From positions 1-25,858 of the IMG/VR virus record IMGVR_UViG_3300044701_003469: a stretch of DNA of 25,858 nucleotides; one strand, given 5' to 3'. How positions within the stretch are numbered: the first letter of the stretch is position 1; each line of letters opens with the position of its first letter. The DNA comes from a virus. Below the pieces are notes generated by a model. The model was given only the letters and a program-made list of their open reading frames with translations. It did no database searches and was not told the DNA's origin. A program made the translations under genes and the position numbers. Of the stretch, positions 10,922-21,071 are shown one piece after another.

Positions 10922-11568
10922 GACGCACTCCAGTTCTTTAGGACATGAACGAGGGCATCACCGGCATTCGTCAGTGAGTCAGAATCGGTCAGCCCCTGTG
11001 ACTTGATGACCTTGGAAATCAGGCTTGACACCCACTCCGCGTCCTCCACGGGTACCTTGAATCGCATGATCTGATGGGTTGGCCCCGACGACACTTCGGT
11101 CGGTTTCAGCTCGATCTCGTCGTCGTCGCCGTCGATGTCCAGCGAGTCGAAGTCGAGCTCGTCGGTCTTGAAGATCACCTCGAGTTCCTTGTCCGAGTAC
11201 GGCAGAAACGTCGCGAGGTCCGACGGTTTACCTAGGTTCTTGAGTAAATTGGCGAGGCCTTCTGCGTCATCGACGCCGTAGCGTCCGTTATCGACGAGAC
11301 CGATCTCCTTGGCAGTGTCGTCATCCAGGCTGCCGAGGTTGATCACCGGCACCGTGCCAAGACCCAGCCGCTTGGCGGCCTCCCAGCGATGCTGACCGCC
11401 GAGGATCTCAAGCTCCTTCCCGACCTGGCGAGCCAGAATCGGCTTGAAGATGCCGAAGCGCTTCAGGCTTTCGTCGAGCTTGGCCTCGTTGTCCGGAGAG
11501 ACAACGTTGGTGTTCCACGGGTTGGGCCGCAGACGCTTTACATCAACTTCGAGGTGTTCGTATTGCAT
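10918..11568 (-). CDS. ParB-like domain protein 2, first gene of the operon
   Basis: The 216-residue protein starts MQYEHLEVDVKRLRPNPWNT and carries the ParB fold with LDESLKRFGIFKPILARQVG and the GGQHR box in ILGGQHRWEAAKRLGLGTVP (about 55-74), followed by the GLVDNGR phrase. The GxxR box differs from that of its neighbour (GGQHR against GHGR), so the pair are diverged paralogues that may form a heterodimer. A strongly acidic linker (DFDSLDIDGDDDEIE) separates a C-terminal domain of unknown type. Its promoter can be drawn just upstream in the divergent region shared with the helicase gene. Confidence 0.75.
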   Translation of the reverse strand: MQYEHLEVDVKRLRPNPWNTNVVSPDNEAKLDESLKRFGIFKPILARQVGKELEILGGQHRWEAAKRLGLGTVPVINLGSLDDDTAKEIGLVDNGRYGVDDAEGLANLLKNLGKPSDLATFLPYSDKELEVIFKTDELDFDSLDIDGDDDEIELKPTEVSSGPTHQIMRFKVPVEDAEWVSSLISKVIKSQGLTDSDSLTNAGDALVHVLKNWSAS

Positions 11569-11570
11569 GC

Positions 11571-11626
11571 ACTGAAAATAAGTCAGCCGTGACGTATACT
11601 ATAAGCGCGATGCTTATACTTTGCAA
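11571..11626. promoter_or_regulatory. Divergent promoter region with a shared operator
   Basis: Plus strand: CTGAAA (11572-11577), 17 nt, TATACT (11595-11600). Minus strand: TTGCAA, 17 nt, TATAGT, reading toward the ParB operon. A second TATACT lies at 11615-11620, exactly 20 nt after the first. The palindromic motif 11579-11596 lies in the plus-strand spacer and at the minus-strand transcription start, so one protein could control both directions. Confidence 0.65.
11579..11596 (+). promoter_or_regulatory. 18-bp palindromic motif, site 5, between ParB and helicase units
   Basis: The plus strand reads TAAGTCAGCCGTGACGTA. It fills the spacer between the -35 and -10 boxes of the helicase promoter. 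Confidence 0.75.
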
Positions 11627-11631
11627 ATACG

Positions 11632-13188
11632 ATGGCTGGCCGAATCACCCTGGCCTATAACGCGGTCAACGCGAAGTTGATCGATGCGGACCGGGATACT
11701 GCCCTTCTGGTCTCGAAGCTCCTCAGCTACGAAGTTGACGGAGCCGAGAACATGGAGGCCTTCAAGTCAGGCCACTGGGACGGTCGAAGTTCCTTCTTCG
11801 AAATGCGCCAGGCCCGCTTTCCAGCGGGCTTTGTGCATCTGGTGTCGCAGCAGCTCACGAAGCGCGGCTACCAGGTGCAGGTACTTCGCAAACCGCTGCC
11901 GCTGCCGAAAGGCCCCGAGCGACCGCTCTTCGACAAGTTCGGCTACTCGAGTTCCGACTACGACTACCAGCCCGAGACGGCCGATCGACTGATTCGTCAC
12001 GGTCGCCTGATCGCCCAGATCGCAACCGGTGGCGGTAAATCTCGCGTCGCGCAGGTGGTGACGGCCCGCATCATGCGCCCGACCCTGTTCCTCACGACGC
12101 GCAGCGTCCTGATGTACCAGATGAAGGAACACTACGAGTCGATGCTCAAGGGGCTCGCAGAGTTTCACCCGGGCATGGGATCGATGGCCAAACACACGGT
12201 GGGCGTTTTAGGGGACTCCGTGTGGGACCCCCGCAAGTTCATCAATGTCGGGATGGTGCAGACGCTTATAGCGCGTCTGAAAGAGCCCGACCCGTTCGCA
12301 GCGCCCGACAAGCAGGCCGAGCAAGCGAAGATCCGGGCCGCAACGATCCGGCTACTCGAGTACTTCGAGCTGGTGATTCTCGAGGAGGCCCACGAGGCGT
12401 CCGGCAACAGCTACTACGACATTCTTTCGCACTGCAAGTCCGCCCATTACCGCCTGGCACTGACTGCCACGCCCTTCATGAAGGACAGCGGCGAAGCCAA
12501 CATGCGCCTGATGGCGGTCTCCGGCCCGATCGGCATCCGGGTCACCGAGAAGCAGCTGATCGATGCGGGAATTCTCGCCAAGCCCCACTTCAAGTACATC
12601 GACCTCGAGAAGCCGCTTGGCCTGATGAAGCGCACCCGCTGGCCCAACTGCTACACCTTGGGTGTCACTGAGAATGCGACCCGCAACGCGGCGATCATCA
12701 AGGAAGCGGTTCGGGCGACCTACTACAAGCTTCCCGTGATGATCCTGGTCCAGCGCAAGGATCACGGAAAAGTCCTCGAGAAGGCCCTTAAAGAGAACGG
12801 CATCAAGACCGCCTACATCTTCGGCGACTCAGATCAGGCTGCCCGCAAGAAAGCCCTGACCCAGCTCGCCAAGGGCGACATCCAGATTCTCATCGGCTCC
12901 ACCATCCTCGATGTCGGCGTCGACGTTCCCGCGATCGGCATGGTGATCCTTGCCGGGGCGGGCAAGGCCGAGGTTCAGCTTCGTCAGCGCATCGGTCGCG
13001 GACTTCGGGCCAAGAAGTCCGGTCCGAACGTCGCCCTGATCGTCGACTTCTCGGACAAGGGCAACGAGTATCTGTCCAGCCATGCCGCCCAGCGACGCAA
13101 GATCATCGAAGACACCCCCGGTTTCGGCGAGAACGTACTGCCGCCGGGTGCCGATTTCGACTTCAAAGCCCTAGGACTCGACCAATGA
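11632..13188 (+). CDS. UvsW-like superfamily 2 DNA/RNA helicase
   Basis: The 518-residue protein has an N-terminal UvsW-type domain (MEAFKSGHWDGRSSFFEMRQ near residue 41), then the helicase core: Walker A ATGGGKS (131-137), motif Ia LFLTTRSVL, motif II EEAH (251-254), motif III LTATP (277-281), motif V GSTILDVGVDVPAI (about 422-435) and motif VI QLRQRIGRGLR (449-459). T4 UvsW unwinds branched DNA and R-loops and shifts replication from origins to recombination. Motif II starts with Glu where Asp is usual. The ATG at 11632 has no visible Shine-Dalgarno. The stop overlaps the next start (ATGA). Confidence 0.9.
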   Translation: MAGRITLAYNAVNAKLIDADRDTALLVSKLLSYEVDGAENMEAFKSGHWDGRSSFFEMRQARFPAGFVHLVSQQLTKRGYQVQVLRKPLPLPKGPERPLFDKFGYSSSDYDYQPETADRLIRHGRLIAQIATGGGKSRVAQVVTARIMRPTLFLTTRSVLMYQMKEHYESMLKGLAEFHPGMGSMAKHTVGVLGDSVWDPRKFINVGMVQTLIARLKEPDPFAAPDKQAEQAKIRAATIRLLEYFELVILEEAHEASGNSYYDILSHCKSAHYRLALTATPFMKDSGEANMRLMAVSGPIGIRVTEKQLIDAGILAKPHFKYIDLEKPLGLMKRTRWPNCYTLGVTENATRNAAIIKEAVRATYYKLPVMILVQRKDHGKVLEKALKENGIKTAYIFGDSDQAARKKALTQLAKGDIQILIGSTILDVGVDVPAIGMVILAGAGKAEVQLRQRIGRGLRAKKSGPNVALIVDFSDKGNEYLSSHAAQRRKIIEDTPGFGENVLPPGADFDFKALGLDQ

Positions 13189-15523: not shown

Positions 15524-15724
15524 ATCCAAGCCCTATAAGGACCCGAATCCAAATCCACGGAAAATTCAGGCAGAAGGGTTCCGGGGATAAGAGAGTAGGA
15601 ACTGATGGGTTGGGAGGTTGGTAACTGAGGGCTGGGAGGATCTATAAGGGCCCGGGGTGGATTTCAGGAAAATTTTGGCACCAAGGCCTGGCCAGCCCGA
15701 TTTTCCGCCCTAGGACTTCCGTCC
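15524..15724. other. Intergenic stretch without a gene
   Basis: This segment separates the convergent ends of the plus-strand block and the gene at 15765-16400. It is G-rich on the plus strand and contains the words TTGGTAACTGAGG and CTATAAGG (twice). The first resembles the reverse complement of the 21-bp tandem repeat at 20193-20349. No open frame with a start signal is seen. Confidence 0.6.
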
Positions 15725-15760
15725 AAAAAAAAGGGCCGCCCCGTCCATAGGGCGGCCCTT
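15725..15760 (-). terminator. Intrinsic terminator of the 15765-16400 gene
   Basis: An 11-bp perfect stem (15731-15741 with 15750-15760) and 8-nt loop are followed on the minus strand by eight T (15732-15725). In the plus direction the hairpin has only a short, interrupted T tract, so it is mainly a minus-strand terminator. Confidence 0.85.
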
Positions 15761-15764
15761 CGTG

Positions 15765-16400
15765 TCACGCGCCCTTGACAACGAGGGGTGACGATTCGCG
15801 TACGATCGTCGCGAGTCGTCGCGCTGTATCAGAGTCAGTCCAGCGCATGAGCCCGACGCGCCCTTGCGTCGATTCTTCGATGAGCCCGAGCGAGCGCAGC
15901 GCATATGCGCTACTGCTACGCTGCGTGGGCGCAGTGCCCGTGACACTCACGAAACACTCACGGGCGATGCCCTTGTGTACATTCTCGTTCGTGTCCCAAT
16001 CGTCAGACAATGCGAGAATGCAGGCCCTGTGCAAGTCGCTCATGCTGTGATGTTTCGACCCTGACGCGAGCGAGCGTACAATCGACGCGAGTTTCACGAG
16101 CCCGTAGACGGGAGCCCGTTTCCCGTCTACGTCAACAAGGGCGCCCAATGCGCGCTCGATTGTCGCGCTGCTAATGTCTCCCTGTGCTACGAGTTTAGCA
16201 GCGTCATCGAAGAGGGAGGGCGTGAGGGTTACGCGCAATTCGTTCGCCCATTGTTTCGCAGTCTTTTCGTGCTTCGCGTCAGTGAGCGCGAGCCCTTCGA
16301 AATGCGCGATAGCAGCGCGGGCAGAATCGATAGCCCGTGATTCAAGGGCGCGGGCGTCAATTGTGTTTGTGAGGGCGGGAGTCTTGATTTTCTTCGACAT
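15765..16400 (-). CDS. Unknown protein with possible winged-helix end (211 aa)
   Basis: The product starts MSKKIKTPALTNTIDARALE and is mostly helical and Ala/Ser-rich, with HEKTAKQWANELRVTLTPSL and APVYGLVKLASIVRSLASGS. The C-terminus (QRSSSAYALRSLGLIEESTQ, then GRVGLMRWTDSD) reads like a winged helix. No family is recognised. The gene stands alone on its strand between two intergenic regions, has its own terminator and operator-like repeats, and lies beside an AT-rich segment and a palindrome array. An initiator, partition or regulator protein is therefore plausible but unproven. Codon choice (many GCG and CGC, few of the GTC/GAC runs seen next door) suggests separate acquisition. Confidence 0.7.
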   Translation of the reverse strand: MSKKIKTPALTNTIDARALESRAIDSARAAIAHFEGLALTDAKHEKTAKQWANELRVTLTPSLFDDAAKLVAQGDISSATIERALGALVDVDGKRAPVYGLVKLASIVRSLASGSKHHSMSDLHRACILALSDDWDTNENVHKGIARECFVSVTGTAPTQRSSSAYALRSLGLIEESTQGRVGLMRWTDSDTARRLATIVRESSPLVVKGA

Positions 16401-16469: not shown

Positions 16470-16633
16470 CATGACTCGTGCAATTATTTTTGCATGGAAC
16501 TGAAAAGAAAAAGATTCATTCTGAATGCTTCGATGCATAGCAGAAAAGCGGTGTCAAGTATTTTCTGATTCAAAATGAATGTTTTTTATCTTGACAAAAA
16601 GAAAAACGTCATTCCCGAAAGTGTACTAAAATA
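16470..16633. other. AT-rich intergenic segment
   Basis: This stretch is visibly AT-rich in an otherwise GC-rich window, with runs such as AATTATTTTTG and GTTTTTTATC. It holds isolated half-sites (GTGTCAAG near 16552, CTTGACA near 16590) of the palindrome family that follows, and repeats of ATTCA and TGAATG. It contains no gene. It could be a duplex-unwinding element or an acquired promoter region. Confidence 0.65.
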
Positions 16634-16814
16634 TTGACATTCAGAGTGTCAACTAAAATTTACACTTCCCGAGTGTCAATCGGAATTGACAGTCACACTG
16701 TCAATCGGAATTGACACTTCCCTCGGGCGTCAAGGATTTGACGGGTGTCAAGGATTTGACGCGGACCCGGTTCGGCAGGCGGACGTTGCGCGGAAGGTAC
16801 GTCAAACGGTTGAC
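16634..16814. repeat. Array of TGTCAA-TTGACA palindromes
   Basis: Six inverted repeats share TGTCAA and TTGACA half-sites: 16634-16652 (halves everted), 16674-16691 and 16699-16716 (identical TGTCAATCGGAATTGACA), 16729-16742 and 16747-16760 (identical GTCAAGGATTTGAC), and 16801-16814 (GTCAAACGGTTGAC). The last four are GTCAA, four bases, TTGAC. Three successive start distances are 29, 18 and 54 nt. This is a protein-binding array in layout. Confidence 0.85.
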
Positions 16815-16831
16815 GTTGCGCGGAAGGTACG
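16782..16831. repeat. 20-bp perfect direct repeat
   Basis: GACGTTGCGCGGAAGGTACG occurs at 16782-16801 and again at 16812-16831, a 30-nt period. The last palindrome of the TGTCAA array lies across the gap. Confidence 0.9.
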
Positions 16832-16920: not shown

Positions 16921-17060
16921 GCCATGGAAAGCCCTTCCAGGGCTCCAGAGGCTGCGTCGCCTTAGGCTATGGCCGTTCCATAGGCCGTGCCGTTTCCTAT
17001 GGCCCACGCATAGGCGGCTCAGTGAGAGGATTCCTAACCAGGCTCCATGGAAGTTTCCGA
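16921..17060. other. Intergenic stretch rich in CCATGG/CTATGG hairpins
   Basis: CTATGG paired with CCATAG (from 16967) and CCTATGG with CATAGG (near 17000-17015) make short hairpins, and CCATGG occurs twice. The 15-mer CGCCTTAGGCTATGG at 16958-16972 recurs at 19554-19568. No open frame here has a convincing start. Confidence 0.6.
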
Positions 17061-17109
17061 GCCCGACAAAACGGACAGCCCTTGGGCAATCCGTCTTGTG
17101 AGGGGCTGG

Positions 17110-17346
17110 CTAGTTCCAGCTGGGTTCACGCCCATTCAGCAGCGGCTCCCAGTTTGGGAGGTCGTCCCATTCGAACTCCGTGTTGCCCAGTCTCTTAGGC
17201 CCCGACAGATACGCAAACTCGGTGAGTTCGGGCTCTTCCAGGGTCTCGGGGTCCAGAAGCTGACTGTCGAGGGCGTTGGTCTCGAAGGGATCGACGGATC
17301 GGGCTGAAACGCGTTCTAAGCGGTTCTGGGTGGTTTTGCGACTCAT
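17110..17346 (-). CDS. Unknown acidic protein (78 aa)
   Basis: The ATG at 17346 has GGAG about 8 nt upstream. The product begins MSRKTTQNRLERVSARSVDP and is acidic further on (LLDPETLEEPELTEFAYLSG, then NTEFEWDDLPNWEPLLNG). It has no membrane segment or metal motif and no family is recognised. It stands alone between repeat regions, upstream of the palindrome array on the same strand as the gene at 15765. Confidence rests on the start signal and codon use. Confidence 0.5.
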   Translation of the reverse strand: MSRKTTQNRLERVSARSVDPFETNALDSQLLDPETLEEPELTEFAYLSGPKRLGNTEFEWDDLPNWEPLLNGREPSWN

Positions 17347-17608
17347 CTCAGTGCTCCATAGTGGGTTGTATTTAAATCGGCCCTAAAGCGTTTTAATCAC
17401 GATTTAAGACTAAGTAAGCACTGAGCGGATGTCGAATGGCTTATCGTCGGCGGGATGAAGTTCCAACTAGGTGGTGAATCGGGTGGCGGTCCATGGCGTC
17501 GTGTTGGCCGGATTTAGATAAACCCGTCCACGCGGGCTGCCGGAGTTCCATGGACGTATATACGCGCACGTATAGGCGCTGATGTGCGCCTATACGGGTG
17601 GGTGGAAG
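17347..17608. other. Intergenic stretch with a 10-bp hairpin
   Basis: It holds an AT-rich segment (17365-17415) with AAGCGTTTTAATCACG, which recurs in similar form at 20850. It also holds a perfect 10-bp hairpin, GTATAGGCGC with GCGCCTATAC (17570-17579 and 17586-17595), next to the palindrome CGTATATACG. The hairpin follows the gene at 17609 but has no T run, so it is not a typical terminator. CCATGG occurs twice. Confidence 0.6.
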
Positions 17609-17992
17609 TTAACCGGCGTGTATCTCCGTCGCACCCTTCGCGAGGGCCGCGAGCACCACGTCCTTGAACGCGTAAAGCGGCGAACGCAGCGATCCGTACT
17701 CGTTCGCGGGCGGCGTGATGGCGATCGCATCGTTGATTCGAGTGATCAGATTCCAGCTCACGGGAATCGTGGTGGCGTACGTGTCCTCCGGGACCACGTG
17801 CCCGACCCGCTCGAAGATGGCAAACGCGGTGGCGTACCCGACGTGCATGGAGTGTGCGTCGTTGGTGAAAACGACCACCCCACAACCCTTGCAGTCGGAA
17901 CACTCGGGTGTCGGCGAGGAATTCCAGACGCAGGTGCACTCGTACACCTTGGAGATCTGCTCGTCGCCCTCGAAGAAAATGGACATACCCAT
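17609..17992 (-). CDS. Unknown Cys-cluster protein (127 aa)
   Basis: I chose the ATG at 17992 (MGMSIFFEGDEQISKVYECT) because CAGGAG lies 8 nt upstream; the open frame runs further up through a terminator and a duplicated leader and is not credible there. Five Cys within residues 19-37 (CTC, then ECSDCKGCG) suggest a small zinc-binding module. The rest includes YATAFAIFERVGHVVPEDTY and SPLYAFKDVVLAALAKGATE. No family is recognised. It is preceded by a segment duplicated near 22927. Confidence 0.65.
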   Translation of the reverse strand: MGMSIFFEGDEQISKVYECTCVWNSSPTPECSDCKGCGVVVFTNDAHSMHVGYATAFAIFERVGHVVPEDTYATTIPVSWNLITRINDAIAITPPANEYGSLRSPLYAFKDVVLAALAKGATEIHAG

Positions 17993-18021
17993 GATTGAAA
18001 CTCCTGGCTTGTTGTGACTCT

Positions 18022-18073
18022 CGACCCTGAAAGTCTCGCAAGCCGGGTGCTGGATGTCGGCTGGATAATGCGC
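18022..18073. repeat. Leader segment duplicated at 22927-22981
   Basis: From CGACCCTG to GGATAATGCGC this stretch aligns with 22927-22981, sharing CTCGCAAGC, GTCGGCTGGATAA and most bases between. At the other copy the DNA also encodes the end of a zinc-ribbon gene (YPADFQPIACE). Here it would read YPADIQHPACE with no intact gene, so it is likely a remnant of a duplicated gene end plus leader. Confidence 0.7.
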
Positions 18074-18116
18074 GGCAGATGGGCGGCTACATTCGGGTCC
18101 ATGGAATGCCCACAGC

Positions 18117-18143
18117 CCAAGAAAAGGCGGAGACTTCCCCGCC
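18117..18143 (-). terminator. Intrinsic terminator after the 18162-18350 gene
   Basis: On the minus strand GGCGGGG, loop AAGT and CTCCGCC form a 7-bp stem including one G-U pair, followed by TTTTCTT. It separates the small genes above from the gene at 17609-17992. Confidence 0.7.
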
Positions 18144-18161
18144 CTTCCAAGTTTCAGCCCT

Positions 18162-18350
18162 TTAGCGGGTGGCCCGAGTCTTCTCAATGGGCTGGAGCTG
18201 ATACCCATACGCCCAGTGTCCGTTGTCCAGGTCGTAGACCACCTCGTCGTTCTTCTCGCCCGTGTTGTCCACAATCGTCGCGGGCTTGGGCATCTGCCTG
18301 CCAAAGGCCCCGCTCCACATGACCCGCTCGCCAATCTTGAACTGCTGCAT
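18162..18350 (-). CDS. Unknown small beta-rich protein (62 aa)
   Basis: The ATG at 18350 lies 2 nt after the previous stop codon. The product begins MQQFKIGERVMWSGAFGRQM and continues with PATIVDNTGEKNDEVVYDLD and GHWAYGYQLQPIE, a pattern typical of small SH3-like or KOW-like barrels found in phages. The function is unknown. It lies in a two-gene unit with the membrane protein before it and ends at an intrinsic terminator. Confidence 0.6.
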   Translation of the reverse strand: MQQFKIGERVMWSGAFGRQMPKPATIVDNTGEKNDEVVYDLDNGHWAYGYQLQPIEKTRATR

Positions 18351-18352
18351 GA

Positions 18353-18496
18353 TCAGCCCTCCGCCTGGGCGTACTCGACGATCGCGACCGTGCCCACCAG
18401 AACCAGCGACGCGATCATCAGCTCCACGAAGCCCGTGACGACGGACAACACGAACAAGGCGACCCCGAACCATGTGATTGCATTGACTGATTTCAT
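18353..18496 (-). CDS. Small two-span membrane protein (47 aa)
   Basis: The ATG at 18496 has GGAGAG 5 nt upstream in the recurring leader GGAGAGTCAC-ATG. Hydrophobic segments ITWFGVALFVLSVVTGFV and LMIASLVLVGTVAIV are split by a single Glu, so it forms either a hairpin of two helices or one long re-entrant helix, with a short acidic tail EYAQAEG. The function is unknown; holin-like and exclusion peptides have similar shapes, but no lysis gene is nearby. Confidence 0.6.
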   Translation of the reverse strand: MKSVNAITWFGVALFVLSVVTGFVELMIASLVLVGTVAIVEYAQAEG

Positions 18497-18504
18497 GTGA
18501 CTCT

Positions 18505-18522
18505 CCAGTTATGGGTGACTTA
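18505..18522 (-). promoter_or_regulatory. 18-bp palindromic motif, site 8
   Basis: The plus strand reads CCAGTTATGGGTGACTTA, so the strong half faces right. It lies 9 nt before the start of the membrane-protein gene at 18496. No good -10 is seen on the minus strand, so it may act as an operator downstream of a promoter. Confidence 0.6.
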
Positions 18523-18534
18523 CTACGCTATCAG

Positions 18535-18590
18535 TATTCAACCCCAAATGCTGGATAACAAGCATTCCAGCAATGCTACCTATCAAGCAC
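18535..18590. other. Short inverted repeats between two units
   Basis: AATGCTGG and CCAGCA, and AATGCT with AGCATT, form competing small hairpins after the gene at 18591-18929. There is no T run, so they are not scored as a terminator. Confidence 0.4.
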
Positions 18591-18929
18591 CTATCGGATC
18601 TTTCTTCCAAGTACCGTCAGGTCCTGCTCTTCCGTGATGTACTGAACCGCGCCTTTATTGAATTGCGGTGCGAGTCGCTTTGACTTGGCGATGATCGCTT
18701 GCTGAACCTCTGGAGATTCACGCGCCAGCATGACCGGGTCCATGACCGAGTTTCGCACGGGCTGAAACGGCGTCGCCGTAACAACACTCGGAAGGTGCGA
18801 CACGTCCGCCCGACGATACGGGCCTGAAGCCAGCTGGAGATCACGAAAGGGCGGCTTGGGTAACTTCCGCGAGACAATCTTGGATTTCTTGCGTCGCCGT
18901 GACTTGGGCACTGCCGTGTACACCAACAT
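18591..18929 (-). CDS. Unknown phage protein (112 aa)
   Basis: The protein has a basic N-terminus (PKSRRRKKSKIVSRKLPKPP). Its C-terminal part includes PVMLARESPEVQQAIIAKSK, RLAPQFNKGAVQYITEEQD and a final GRKIR. I recognise the C-terminal pattern (ESPEVQ, then KSKR.AP.YNKGAVQYIT) from many phage hypotheticals of unknown role. The basic stretch suggests nucleic-acid binding or a peripheral virion role. It lies 9 nt after the preceding gene, with TTGAGG before its ATG. Confidence 0.7.
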   Translation of the reverse strand: MLVYTAVPKSRRRKKSKIVSRKLPKPPFRDLQLASGPYRRADVSHLPSVVTATPFQPVRNSVMDPVMLARESPEVQQAIIAKSKRLAPQFNKGAVQYITEEQDLTVLGRKIR

Positions 18930-18938
18930 GGCCGTACC

Positions 18939-19127
18939 TCAACCCAACTCGTCCAGGGTGGCGATGATCTGGTGGGCGACATCAGCCGCATCCATGCCAT
19001 CCTCAAACGCGATGACATAGGGAAAGTCGGACAGGTCCCGACAGCCTACCCCGATCTCAGAATGAAGCCGGGTGTCGATCTCCGTCATGAACTGTTCGAA
19101 CTGAACCTCGTAACTCGTCGCTGCCAT
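18939..19127 (-). CDS. Unknown small protein (62 aa)
   Basis: I chose the ATG at 19127 because GGGAGAG lies 5 nt upstream in the recurring leader; a longer frame starts at 19160 without such a signal. The product MAATSYEVQFEQFMTEIDTR continues with a Cys (GVGCRDLSDFPYVIAFEDGM) and ends in helix AADVAHQIIATLDELG. It looks like a compact alpha/beta protein. No family is certain. Confidence 0.65.
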   Translation of the reverse strand: MAATSYEVQFEQFMTEIDTRLHSEIGVGCRDLSDFPYVIAFEDGMDAADVAHQIIATLDELG

Positions 19128-19189
19128 GTGACTCTCCCGAAGGGCTGATCCAACAGTCATCTGACTGCCCGAACAGTGTCATGCTGGAT

Positions 19190-19207
19190 TAAGTCACCAA
19201 CAAGTGT
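19190..19207 (-). promoter_or_regulatory. 18-bp palindromic motif, site 9
   Basis: The plus strand reads TAAGTCACCAACAAGTGT; only the left half is well conserved. On the minus strand GTGAC is followed by TTAATC, a weak -10 at the usual offset. It lies 63 nt before the gene starting at 19127. Confidence 0.55.
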
Positions 19208-19397
19208 GTTTCGTTGGCAAGTAGACGGCTAAATTCAGCCCTTACCATGGTCAGACTTTTCGGCGGCCATAAGAGATCTATTCTTCTATTCTCCTAGTTC
19301 TTCTTTTCTTAAAGAGAGTTTCCCCTGGCAGCGGTTCTTTTATAGGTGACGGTAAGAGAATTTTTCATCATGGTAATAGGCGAAATGATGCCCAAAC
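19208..19397. other. Intergenic stretch without a gene
   Basis: It contains a pyrimidine-rich run near 19272-19310 (repeats of TTCTTCT) resembling one near 8380-8400 on the other strand, and one CCATGG. No open frame with a start signal is seen. Confidence 0.5.
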
Positions 19398-19665
19398 CAT
19401 GGAAACCGTCCATTTCGCCTGTTACCACGACCATCTTGCGCACCATGGCAGCACGCCGTGCCAAGTCTCCATGGACTCGTGCCGTACCGTATCCATGGCA
19501 CGCCTTGCCATGTCTCATTCAAGGCAAAGCCATGGCCTCGCCACGTCTTTGATCGCCTTAGGCTATGGAAAACCCATAGCCAGGCAATACATCCATACCC
19601 GCCTATATGGCAATTTCGAAAGATCAAGCTCTATGGCTTCCCAGGGAAGAAAACTTCCATGGCTA
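19398..19665. repeat. Cluster of CCATGG and related hexamers
   Basis: CCATGG occurs six times in under 270 nt, with CTATGG, CCATAG and TCATGG variants between. CGCCTTAGGCTATGG (19554-19568) is identical to 16958-16972 and is followed by a perfect GGCTATGG/CCATAGCC hairpin (19561-19581). No gene fits this segment. Confidence 0.75.
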
Positions 19666-19681
19666 AACAAATCAATCATCC

Positions 19682-19718
19682 AAAAAGAAGCCCGGCAAGG
19701 TTTTCACCGTACCGGGCT
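19682..19718 (-). terminator. Intrinsic terminator with no upstream gene
   Basis: On the minus strand AGCCCGG and CCGGGCT (19718-19712 and 19695-19689) pair, with an inner GGT/ACC helix and a TTCTTTTTG run after. No convincing minus-strand gene lies above it for more than 1.3 kb, which suggests a non-coding transcript. Confidence 0.75.
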
Positions 19719-19982
19719 AAAGTTTCACTAACTAACAACACCATCTTCCCAGACACACTCAATCGGTGCAACCCGAGGACTCCTCAAGGGCTGCCAGGTT
19801 CGAACCGACGATCGGGCGGTGACAGCTCTCCGGGGGGCGAGTCACCAACCCAGCGAAGACACACACCAGTACCGTCCCGATCGTCGGCCCCAAACAGTCA
19901 GTCTCCCGACTGTCAGACCGAGTCCAGCGCGACAGCCACAGACGGGATCAACGTCTCGGGCTGCCATCCCGTGCTCGACTCG
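19682..19982 (-). ncRNA. Candidate structured RNA
   Basis: Five inverted repeats at 19805-19982 nest without crossing: 19805-19816/19876-19887 (12 bp) enclosing 19818-19823/19841-19846; 19894-19899/19908-19913; and 19919-19924/19977-19982 enclosing 19942-19948/19966-19972. The minus-strand terminator at 19682-19718 would define the 3' end. No clear promoter is seen. Strand and boundaries are inferred. Confidence 0.4.
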
Positions 19983-20029
19983 ATGAGTGAACTGTAGACC
20001 CCCAAGGGACGGATGTCGGTAGGCATCTG

Positions 20030-20160
20030 GGTGGTAAACAAAGGGCCCCAGCCATGGCACTTCACCATGGCCAACTTTTGGAAAGATCATCATGGCGCAC
20101 CTGGCCTGATTTCCATGGACTGGTCCAGGTCAAGAACACAGCAGGAAATGGATTCGTGGA
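20030..20160. other. Intergenic stretch with more CCATGG sites
   Basis: CCATGG occurs three times (AGCCATGGCAC, ACCATGGCC, TCCATGGAC) together with TCATGG. No gene is convincing. The segment connects the candidate RNA with the tandem repeat. Confidence 0.5.
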
Positions 20161-20192
20161 ATTTTGGGTCGAGGCGGCCCTATTCCTCTACC

Positions 20193-20349
20193 CCTCAGTT
20201 ACCGTCTCCTCAGCTCCTCTACCCCTCAGTTACCGTCTCCTCGGCCTCAGTTACCGTCTCCTCGGCCTCAGTTACCGTCTCCTCAGCCTCAGTTACCAAC
20301 ACTTCAGCCTCACTTCCCAACACTTCAGCCCCAGTCACCAACACTTCAG
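20193..20349. repeat. 21-bp tandem repeat, seven units
   Basis: Units begin CCTCAGTTACC: 20193-20213, then after a 10-nt insert 20224-20244, 20245-20265, 20266-20286, 20287-20307, 20308-20328 and 20329-20349. The first four end GTCTCCTC(A/G)G; the last three end AACACTTCAG. The plus strand is C/T-rich. A 21-bp period keeps frames open by chance, so open frames here are not evidence of a gene. Confidence 0.9.
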
Positions 20350-20389
20350 TTCCTCAGTTCCCAGTTACCTACTTCTCAGCCCACTCATG

Positions 20390-20849
20390 ACAGACCATCC
20401 CTAGTTCCCATTCATGGTCTATCTATCCCTTGGGATGGCTGTACTCATGGGGAGCCGTGTCTCTTACTGCCTTCCTTGGTGCGGTAGAGGTAAACCCTTG
20501 CTGCTATGGCGGGAGATCTTTCCTAGATAGATCACTCCCTATGCTCTCCATGGTCTTTGCTATGGGGTTTGATGGCATTCCTGGGTGATCTCTGTACGGA
20601 AGCTGAATTGACTCCGGGAATTGCCAACTGAATGGGATGGGCTGCCGTGATTGTTCTCTTGATGAAATGGCATTCCCGAACTTTTAGAAAGTTGGCTTTG
20701 ACTGACTTACATGTCCATCTCAAATCCCATTTCTTGACCTTGGATTTCAGACGGGAAATTCCGCTTCGGGGCTTTGCTTTTGGTAAGTCCTTGGTGAATA
20801 AGGGCTTTTAGGTGGAAGTATAAGTTCTTGAATGGAGATTCTTGCTCCG
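20390..20849. other. Intergenic stretch without a gene
   Basis: A further CCATGG/CTATGGGG pair occurs near 20548-20565. TGACTTA at 20703-20709 matches one half of the 18-bp palindrome without a second half. No open frame with start signal and normal codon use was found on either strand. Confidence 0.55.
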
Positions 20850-20879
20850 AAGCGTTTTAAGACGATCTGGGACTAGGTA
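20850..20879. repeat. Copy of a 30-bp element also at 17386-17416
   Basis: AAGCGTTTTAAGACGATCTG followed by GGACTAGGTA aligns with AAGCGTTTTAATCACGATTT followed by AAGACTAAGTA at 17386-17416, with one or two gaps. Both lie in intergenic DNA. The role is unknown. Confidence 0.55.
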
Positions 20880-20880
20880 C

Positions 20881-21071
20881 GGGGTGGGGGTGGGTCAGGG
20901 TAGTGGGTCTGTCTGCACCTACGCTGGCCGGGCTTCTGCGTTCGTTCTGTGCGTTGGTGCGGGGTGGGGTCTGGGCTTGGGTTGCGGGTTGTTGGAGTGG
21001 GGGCTTGGGTCTGCCATGGTGGTTGGGTGGGGTGGGCAAAGGCGTTGGTGCCCTTGCCGACCTTTGTGGGG
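20881..21071 (+). other. G-rich tract with quadruplex-like motifs
   Basis: The plus strand is strongly G/T-rich. 20881-20900 (GGGGTGGGGGTGGGTCAGGG) and 20961-20988 (five G runs) fit the four-G-tract pattern, and 21024-21036 nearly does. It follows a C-rich tract, so strand composition switches within about 600 nt. No gene is seen. Confidence 0.6.

Follow-up and report, generated by a model that had tools for sequence, protein, structure and literature searches.

We identified a gene, here called X, and a noncoding array of short half-sites beside it that, judged by comparison among relatives, appear to form a conserved module, of varying specificity, that many phages and phage-plasmids of one group share. 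We treat the two as a unit because the array is found repeatedly beside X and its half-site is lineage-specific. Our favoured but tentative reading is that the array is the origin of phage (vegetative) replication and that X is its origin-binding protein. The window, meaning the whole stretch of DNA analysed, is a 25.9-kb virus record and apparently a fragment of a phage genome. Its locus is laid out as follows, with the strand given where one was assigned.

15730-15761, minus strand: predicted intrinsic terminator after gene X, a 13-bp stem plus T run
15765-16400, minus strand: gene X, an ORF of 211 aa belonging to an unnamed family, with a helical N-terminal part and a C-terminal predicted winged helix
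16441-16660: AT-rich segment from a GC scan, between gene X and the array core, a candidate unwinding element
16508-16526: left arm of a 19-bp inverted repeat (89%), inside the AT-rich segment
16552-16557, minus strand: isolated half-site TGTCAA from the motif scan, in AT-rich DNA left of the array
16568-16586: right arm of the 19-bp inverted repeat (89%), inside the AT-rich segment
16591-16596, plus strand: isolated half-site TTGACA in AT-rich DNA, 33 bp from the TGTCAA at 16552-16557
16634-16652: everted pair TTGACA-N7-TGTCAA, from the motif scan
16674-16691: palindrome TGTCAATCGGAATTGACA, copy 1, from the repeat search and motif scan
16699-16716: palindrome TGTCAATCGGAATTGACA, copy 2, 25 bp from copy 1
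16728-16743: palindrome CGTCAAGGATTTGACG, with GTCAAGGATTTGAC at 16729-16742, from the repeat search
16746-16761: palindrome TGTCAAGGATTTGACG, with GTCAAGGATTTGAC at 16747-16760, 18 bp from the CGTCAAGGATTTGACG palindrome
16782-16801: first copy of the 20-bp direct repeat GACGTTGCGCGGAAGGTACG, left of the last palindrome
16800-16815: last palindrome, CGTCAAACGGTTGACG, with GTCAAACGGTTGAC at 16801-16814, 54 bp from the TGTCAAGGATTTGACG palindrome
16812-16831: second copy of the 20-bp direct repeat of GACGTTGCGCGGAAGGTACG, right of the last palindrome

The half-site array of the window is real and clustered beyond chance. The interval 16541-16830 contains 14 GTCAA/TTGAC half-sites, whereas 5,000 first-order Markov simulations gave 1.3 on average and never more than 7. 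It also contains five palindromes of the form GTCAA-N4/6-TTGAC, against 0.006 by simulation. Across the whole window these palindromes are confined to the array (5 found, 0.12 expected, maximum 1 in 60 simulations), and the strongest-clustered 6-mer of the window is TGTCAA. The initial annotation had described an array of six palindromes beside an AT-rich segment. All the elements that it named are present, including the two identical 18-mers, the two identical 14-mers and the isolated half-sites in the AT-rich DNA to the left, but the half-sites at 16634-16652 stand in the opposite, everted order and form a different kind of palindrome from the others, leaving five. Spacing is irregular, at 25, 29, 18 and 54 bp. 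The lowest-GC 150 bp of the window (at 16481-16660, 0.31 GC against 0.578 for the window) touches the array, bearing out the AT-rich neighbour. TTGACA is also the -35 box of sigma-70 promoters; a reading of the half-sites as such boxes was rejected, as no paired -10 was found in the array and relatives use motifs that are not promoter-like.

Capsid, terminase and portal genes, two ParB-N proteins, ABC-type genes and a UvsW-like helicase tie the window to a group of phages of about 100-120 kb that includes Stenotrophomonas BUCTxx99, Pseudomonas nickie, Salmonella SSU5 and Rhizobium RHEph10. By gene content, then, the phage from which the window comes is a relative of the SSU5-, nickie- and RHEph10-type phages and phage-plasmids. 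A plasmid-like prophage group has been proposed with RHEph10 and pLM21S1 as its archetypes (PMC4447125), and B1VFA and V1VFA-S carry parA, parB and repC (PMC12509600). Searches of IMG/VR with X or the helicase alone returned no close relatives of the window, and a search of viral contigs for the tandem TGTCAA palindrome pattern returned seven contigs; the two for which ORFs were listed (L009 and L011) look unrelated.

The X protein has no notable match in PHROG or in Pfam, where none is above cut-off. Its family, for which neither collection holds a model, occurs in more than 40 phages or phage-plasmids. A tblastn search with the window protein reached Rhizobium phages at about 30% identity (E 4e-3), and further homologues were found in more Rhizobium phages, 29 viral contigs and seven genome contigs, and in 115-120-kb plasmids of Pararhizobium, Shinella, Methylobacterium, Rhizobium and Sinorhizobium. 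Aligned to the family profile with hhalign, the window protein matches over a C-terminal region with a conserved TQxSS motif at a pairwise E value, as opposed to one from a database search, of 5.5e-10 (probability 96.6%). The segment GTAPTQxSSxxxAL..LG is common to the window and the family, with invariant Y, K and T..TQxSS..A..G positions. The co-linear gene of BUCTxx99 is similar to X but weakly so (E 0.005). Two candidates were set aside: SSU5_120 (E 0.047, homology not established) and nickie gp019 (no match), both with neighbouring repeats on the 3' side; for these reasons neither is counted as support. In RHEph10 the annotated gp103 (L016:11171-12061) lies in a different frame from the X-homologue ORF at 11256-11954, and the deposited annotation therefore appears to be wrong-frame.

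A confident structure model (pLDDT 91) of the homologue L110, of RHEph10 type, shows helices at the N-terminal end and a winged helix at the C-terminal end. In fold comparison its residues 126-232 matched AF1382 (2qvo, Z 9.3) and MepR (4ld5, Z 8.7), and the C-terminal part of X is thus predicted to have a MarR/ArsR-like fold. The same part resembles numerous further winged helices, among them those of the pNOB8 centromere-binding protein (4rs8, Z 7.8, rmsd 2.4 over 74 residues), TubR (6aht) and ORC/Cdc6. The modelled fold is a common one and gives no function.

The initial annotation had proposed looking for the array in relatives, and many X homologues indeed have a half-site array beside them, with lineage-specific motifs. 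We ranked the most clustered 6-mers of each complete genome without using the window motif. The array upstream of X or its syntenic gene is the top cluster in V1VFA-S, X66, BUCTxx99 and N1_10, and third or fourth in RHEph10, pLM21S1 and M. oryzae. It falls outside the listed top eight in Pararhizobium and pAMS5a, and Shinella and SSU5 gave no clear case; the top cluster of nickie lies on the 3' side of a gene without demonstrable homology to X. Some X loci have no recognisable array (for example L112, L114-L116 and L122), and among 80 loci retrieved with the ParB-like gene, X homologues are common and the nearby repeats are mostly of CTAGG type or unclear. In N1_10 the array occupies the largest annotated intergenic gap, of more than 1 kb, the next being about 525 bp.

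The half-site varies by lineage (GTTGACA, CTTTACA, GGTTTACA, GGTTGCA, GGTTGTC and GGGGACA), and a GTTGACA core is common to the window, N1_10, RHEph10, Y2_11 and Pararhizobium. Mapped onto the X tree, the motif classes, assigned by eye, require 6 changes against a shuffled mean of 10.2, a value as low in 1 of 200 shuffles. This clustering fits co-inheritance of X and its putative sites and partly reflects relatedness. Several alphaproteobacterial members share an arrangement in which direct half-sites, spaced at 10-11 bp, are followed after 31-33 bp by an inverted half-site. A possible remnant of a phage-plasmid was also seen in the 371-kb conjugative plasmid pAvCG78b of Agrobacterium vitis (L062/L137), which has a GTTGACA array and a truncated X lacking the winged-helix part.

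We propose that X would load on the half-site array through its C-terminal winged helix, that the AT-rich DNA beside the array would open, and that the phage-encoded DnaB-type helicase and primase would be recruited to the opened DNA; in temperate alphaproteobacterial members RepC would separately run replication of the plasmid state. We infer binding of X to the array from adjacency and co-variation, and propose melting of the AT-rich DNA and a start of replication at the array as further steps. N1_10 encodes a DnaB-like helicase, a primase, Pol III alpha and epsilon, and SSB, and would thus need a loading site for them. The array is largely confined to one locus, in the window it has AT-rich DNA beside it, and the site neighbouring the predicted winged-helix protein changes between lineages; all of this fits an origin-binding protein. 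Against a vegetative origin, none of 11 genomes showed a difference in third-position GC skew from one side of the array to the other, the relatives' array regions contain no DnaA boxes, and X matches none of the initiator families searched. Winged helices are also common to repressors and centromere binders, the homology of the BUCTxx99 gene is weak, and some X loci, as noted, have no recognisable array. A bolder form of the proposal, possible but in our view doubtful, is that X founds an unrecognised family of phage origin-binding initiators, that the vegetative origin of SSU5/RHEph10-type phages is separate from and roughly opposite the RepC plasmid origin, and that the binding sequence switches between lineages.

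The layout had been likened at the outset to iteron origins and partition sites. The conserved module and the prediction that the neighbouring gene encodes a winged-helix DNA-binding protein suggest that an origin or partition-type site with its own binding protein was the right class of idea; a classical iteron origin it is not. Rep_3 iteron origins and lambda-type origins (O protein, iterons and AT-rich element) likewise consist of a site cluster by AT-rich DNA beside the gene for a site-binding protein, here predicted, and the window does have an adjacent AT-rich element, whose unwinding is predicted. However, the half-sites here are palindromic or of mixed orientation and irregularly spaced: in place of regularly spaced direct repeats there are palindromes in the window and, in several alphaproteobacterial members, short runs of direct sites at 10-11-bp intervals, together with an inverted one. 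X matches none of the named initiator families searched, no Rep_3 (PF01051) initiator is encoded beside the repeats, the array regions of the relatives lack a DnaA box, and the origin role here is predicted. 

The same AT-rich DNA, site array and adjacent gene for a DNA-binding protein could mark a plasmid replication origin of the prophage state, as in iteron plasmids, and since the window covers its phage genome only in part, that phage could lack RepC or Rep_3. We nevertheless consider this very unlikely. RepC domains (PF03428 and PF11800) were present in 10 of 10 alphaproteobacterial relatives tested, not at the array locus and, where measured, 54-58 kb from the array; of nine genomes tested, SSU5 alone had Rep_3, located at 60 kb and a long way from the helicase-side locus. 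For pLM21S1, replication has been assigned to RepC (PMC4447125, PMC5537653), and RepC is likely the plasmid initiator of the complete alphaproteobacterial relatives. The RepC/repABC replicon of pLM21S1 and RHEph10 occurs in the same replicons as X and its array, but X matches no RepC Pfam model and RepC is not encoded at the locus. With RepC so distant and ParA separate, plasmid replication by RepC in those relatives probably does not start at the array. Extrachromosomal replication from phage-borne origins is described for mycobacterial prophages, some with a RepA-like protein and most RNA-based (PMC7157519); those are different phages, and their origins were demonstrated by experiment for the prophage state, whereas the array here is a predicted origin.

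The array could instead be a centromere-like segregation site, which X would coat and link either to a motor or to the host nucleoid, so that the phage in its plasmid state would not be lost as cells divide. In the winged-helix centromere systems TubR/tubC and pNOB8, a repeat array is bound by a winged-helix protein encoded alongside, and the locus would share this arrangement, although the modelled fold similarity is generic, with 4rs8 and 6aht standing among many winged-helix matches. A single-locus array with lineage-specific motifs would also suit incompatibility, and several X-bearing genomes are recorded as plasmids. However, no ParA, ParM or TubZ was recognised next to X in the window, a partial genome, and X is larger than those centromere binders, with an N-terminal helical part. 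In the alphaproteobacterial members ParA lies about 5-8 kb from the array with a small neighbour gene of its own. ParA was not found in BUCTxx99 or nickie, and BUCTxx99, where Rep_3 and RepC were not found either, keeps a similar gene and array. On balance we regard a segregation role as unlikely.

A role as an operator array, with X as an immunity or autoregulatory repressor acting on promoters in or next to the array, seems to us somewhat unlikely. The predicted winged helix resembles MarR/ArsR-type regulators, repressors likewise change specificity between phages, and in both the window and BUCTxx99 a distance of 150-500 bp separates X from the array upstream of it, which makes autoregulation possible there. 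In the alphaproteobacterial members, however, the noncoding array is 1.0-1.35 kb upstream of X, and few promoter-like sites lie near the arrays. Terminator-like hairpins separate array and X in N1_10 and L110, and promoter-like sites stand close to X in L110 and L017; in L110 these weaken simple autoregulation, consensus scans being weak evidence. No forward terminator was found between array and X in V1VFA-S (L002) or L060. A global repressor would also be expected to have dispersed sites, but in the 118-kb genome of V1VFA-S the array holds 4 of 4 CCTTTACA and 6 of 7 CTTTACA copies, and in X66 4 of 4 and 6 of 8, which argues against a dispersed regulon, at least there. Members of the GTTGACA group have the shorter motif at other places in the genome too, about as often as expected by chance.

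A packaging or terminus site, or a functionless remnant, is the most improbable of the readings. The repeat region is noncoding and the relative B1VFA has direct terminal repeats (PMC12509600), but the array lies about 9 kb from the terminase genes of the window and about 20 kb from the start of the V1VFA-S record, and its conserved association with X speaks against a remnant. Taken across the relatives, an overlooked replication origin or segregation site would fit the conserved pair of X and array better than chance or a promoter. To our knowledge, how phage-plasmids keep plasmid-state and lytic replication apart has been worked out in detail for only a few models, P1 among them. A conserved protein and array with lineage-specific sites is a concrete candidate for a second origin or segregation site; existing Rhizobium phages would allow it to be tested, and it could be a source of markers for incompatibility or typing.

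The neighbourhood of the module holds further features. Downstream of X, some alphaproteobacterial relatives have another X-like gene, on the opposite strand and with weaker similarity (E 2.5e-5 to 1e-8), at L211:2953-3567, L223:3033-3599, L224:3762-4358 (minus) and L017:9815-10387 (minus); in N1_10, AGCGCG-rich DNA lies on the 3' side of this gene. Between array and X, alphaproteobacterial members have a noncoding hairpin and T run (L002:3000-3130, L017:7150-7240) that is possibly a small RNA; an Rfam search of the relatives returned tRNAs only and no match for this stretch. CCATGG palindromes occur 23 times in the window, more often than expected (7.7, and at most 17 in 60 simulations); 17 of the 23 fall within 16922-21014, the 4 kb right of the array, and many relatives also have CCATGG/CATGGG clusters near gene X. 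At 20184-20363 a 21-bp unit with the consensus CCTCAGTTACCAACACCTCAG is repeated in tandem about 6.6 times, and similar words in inverse orientation lie near 15605-15640.
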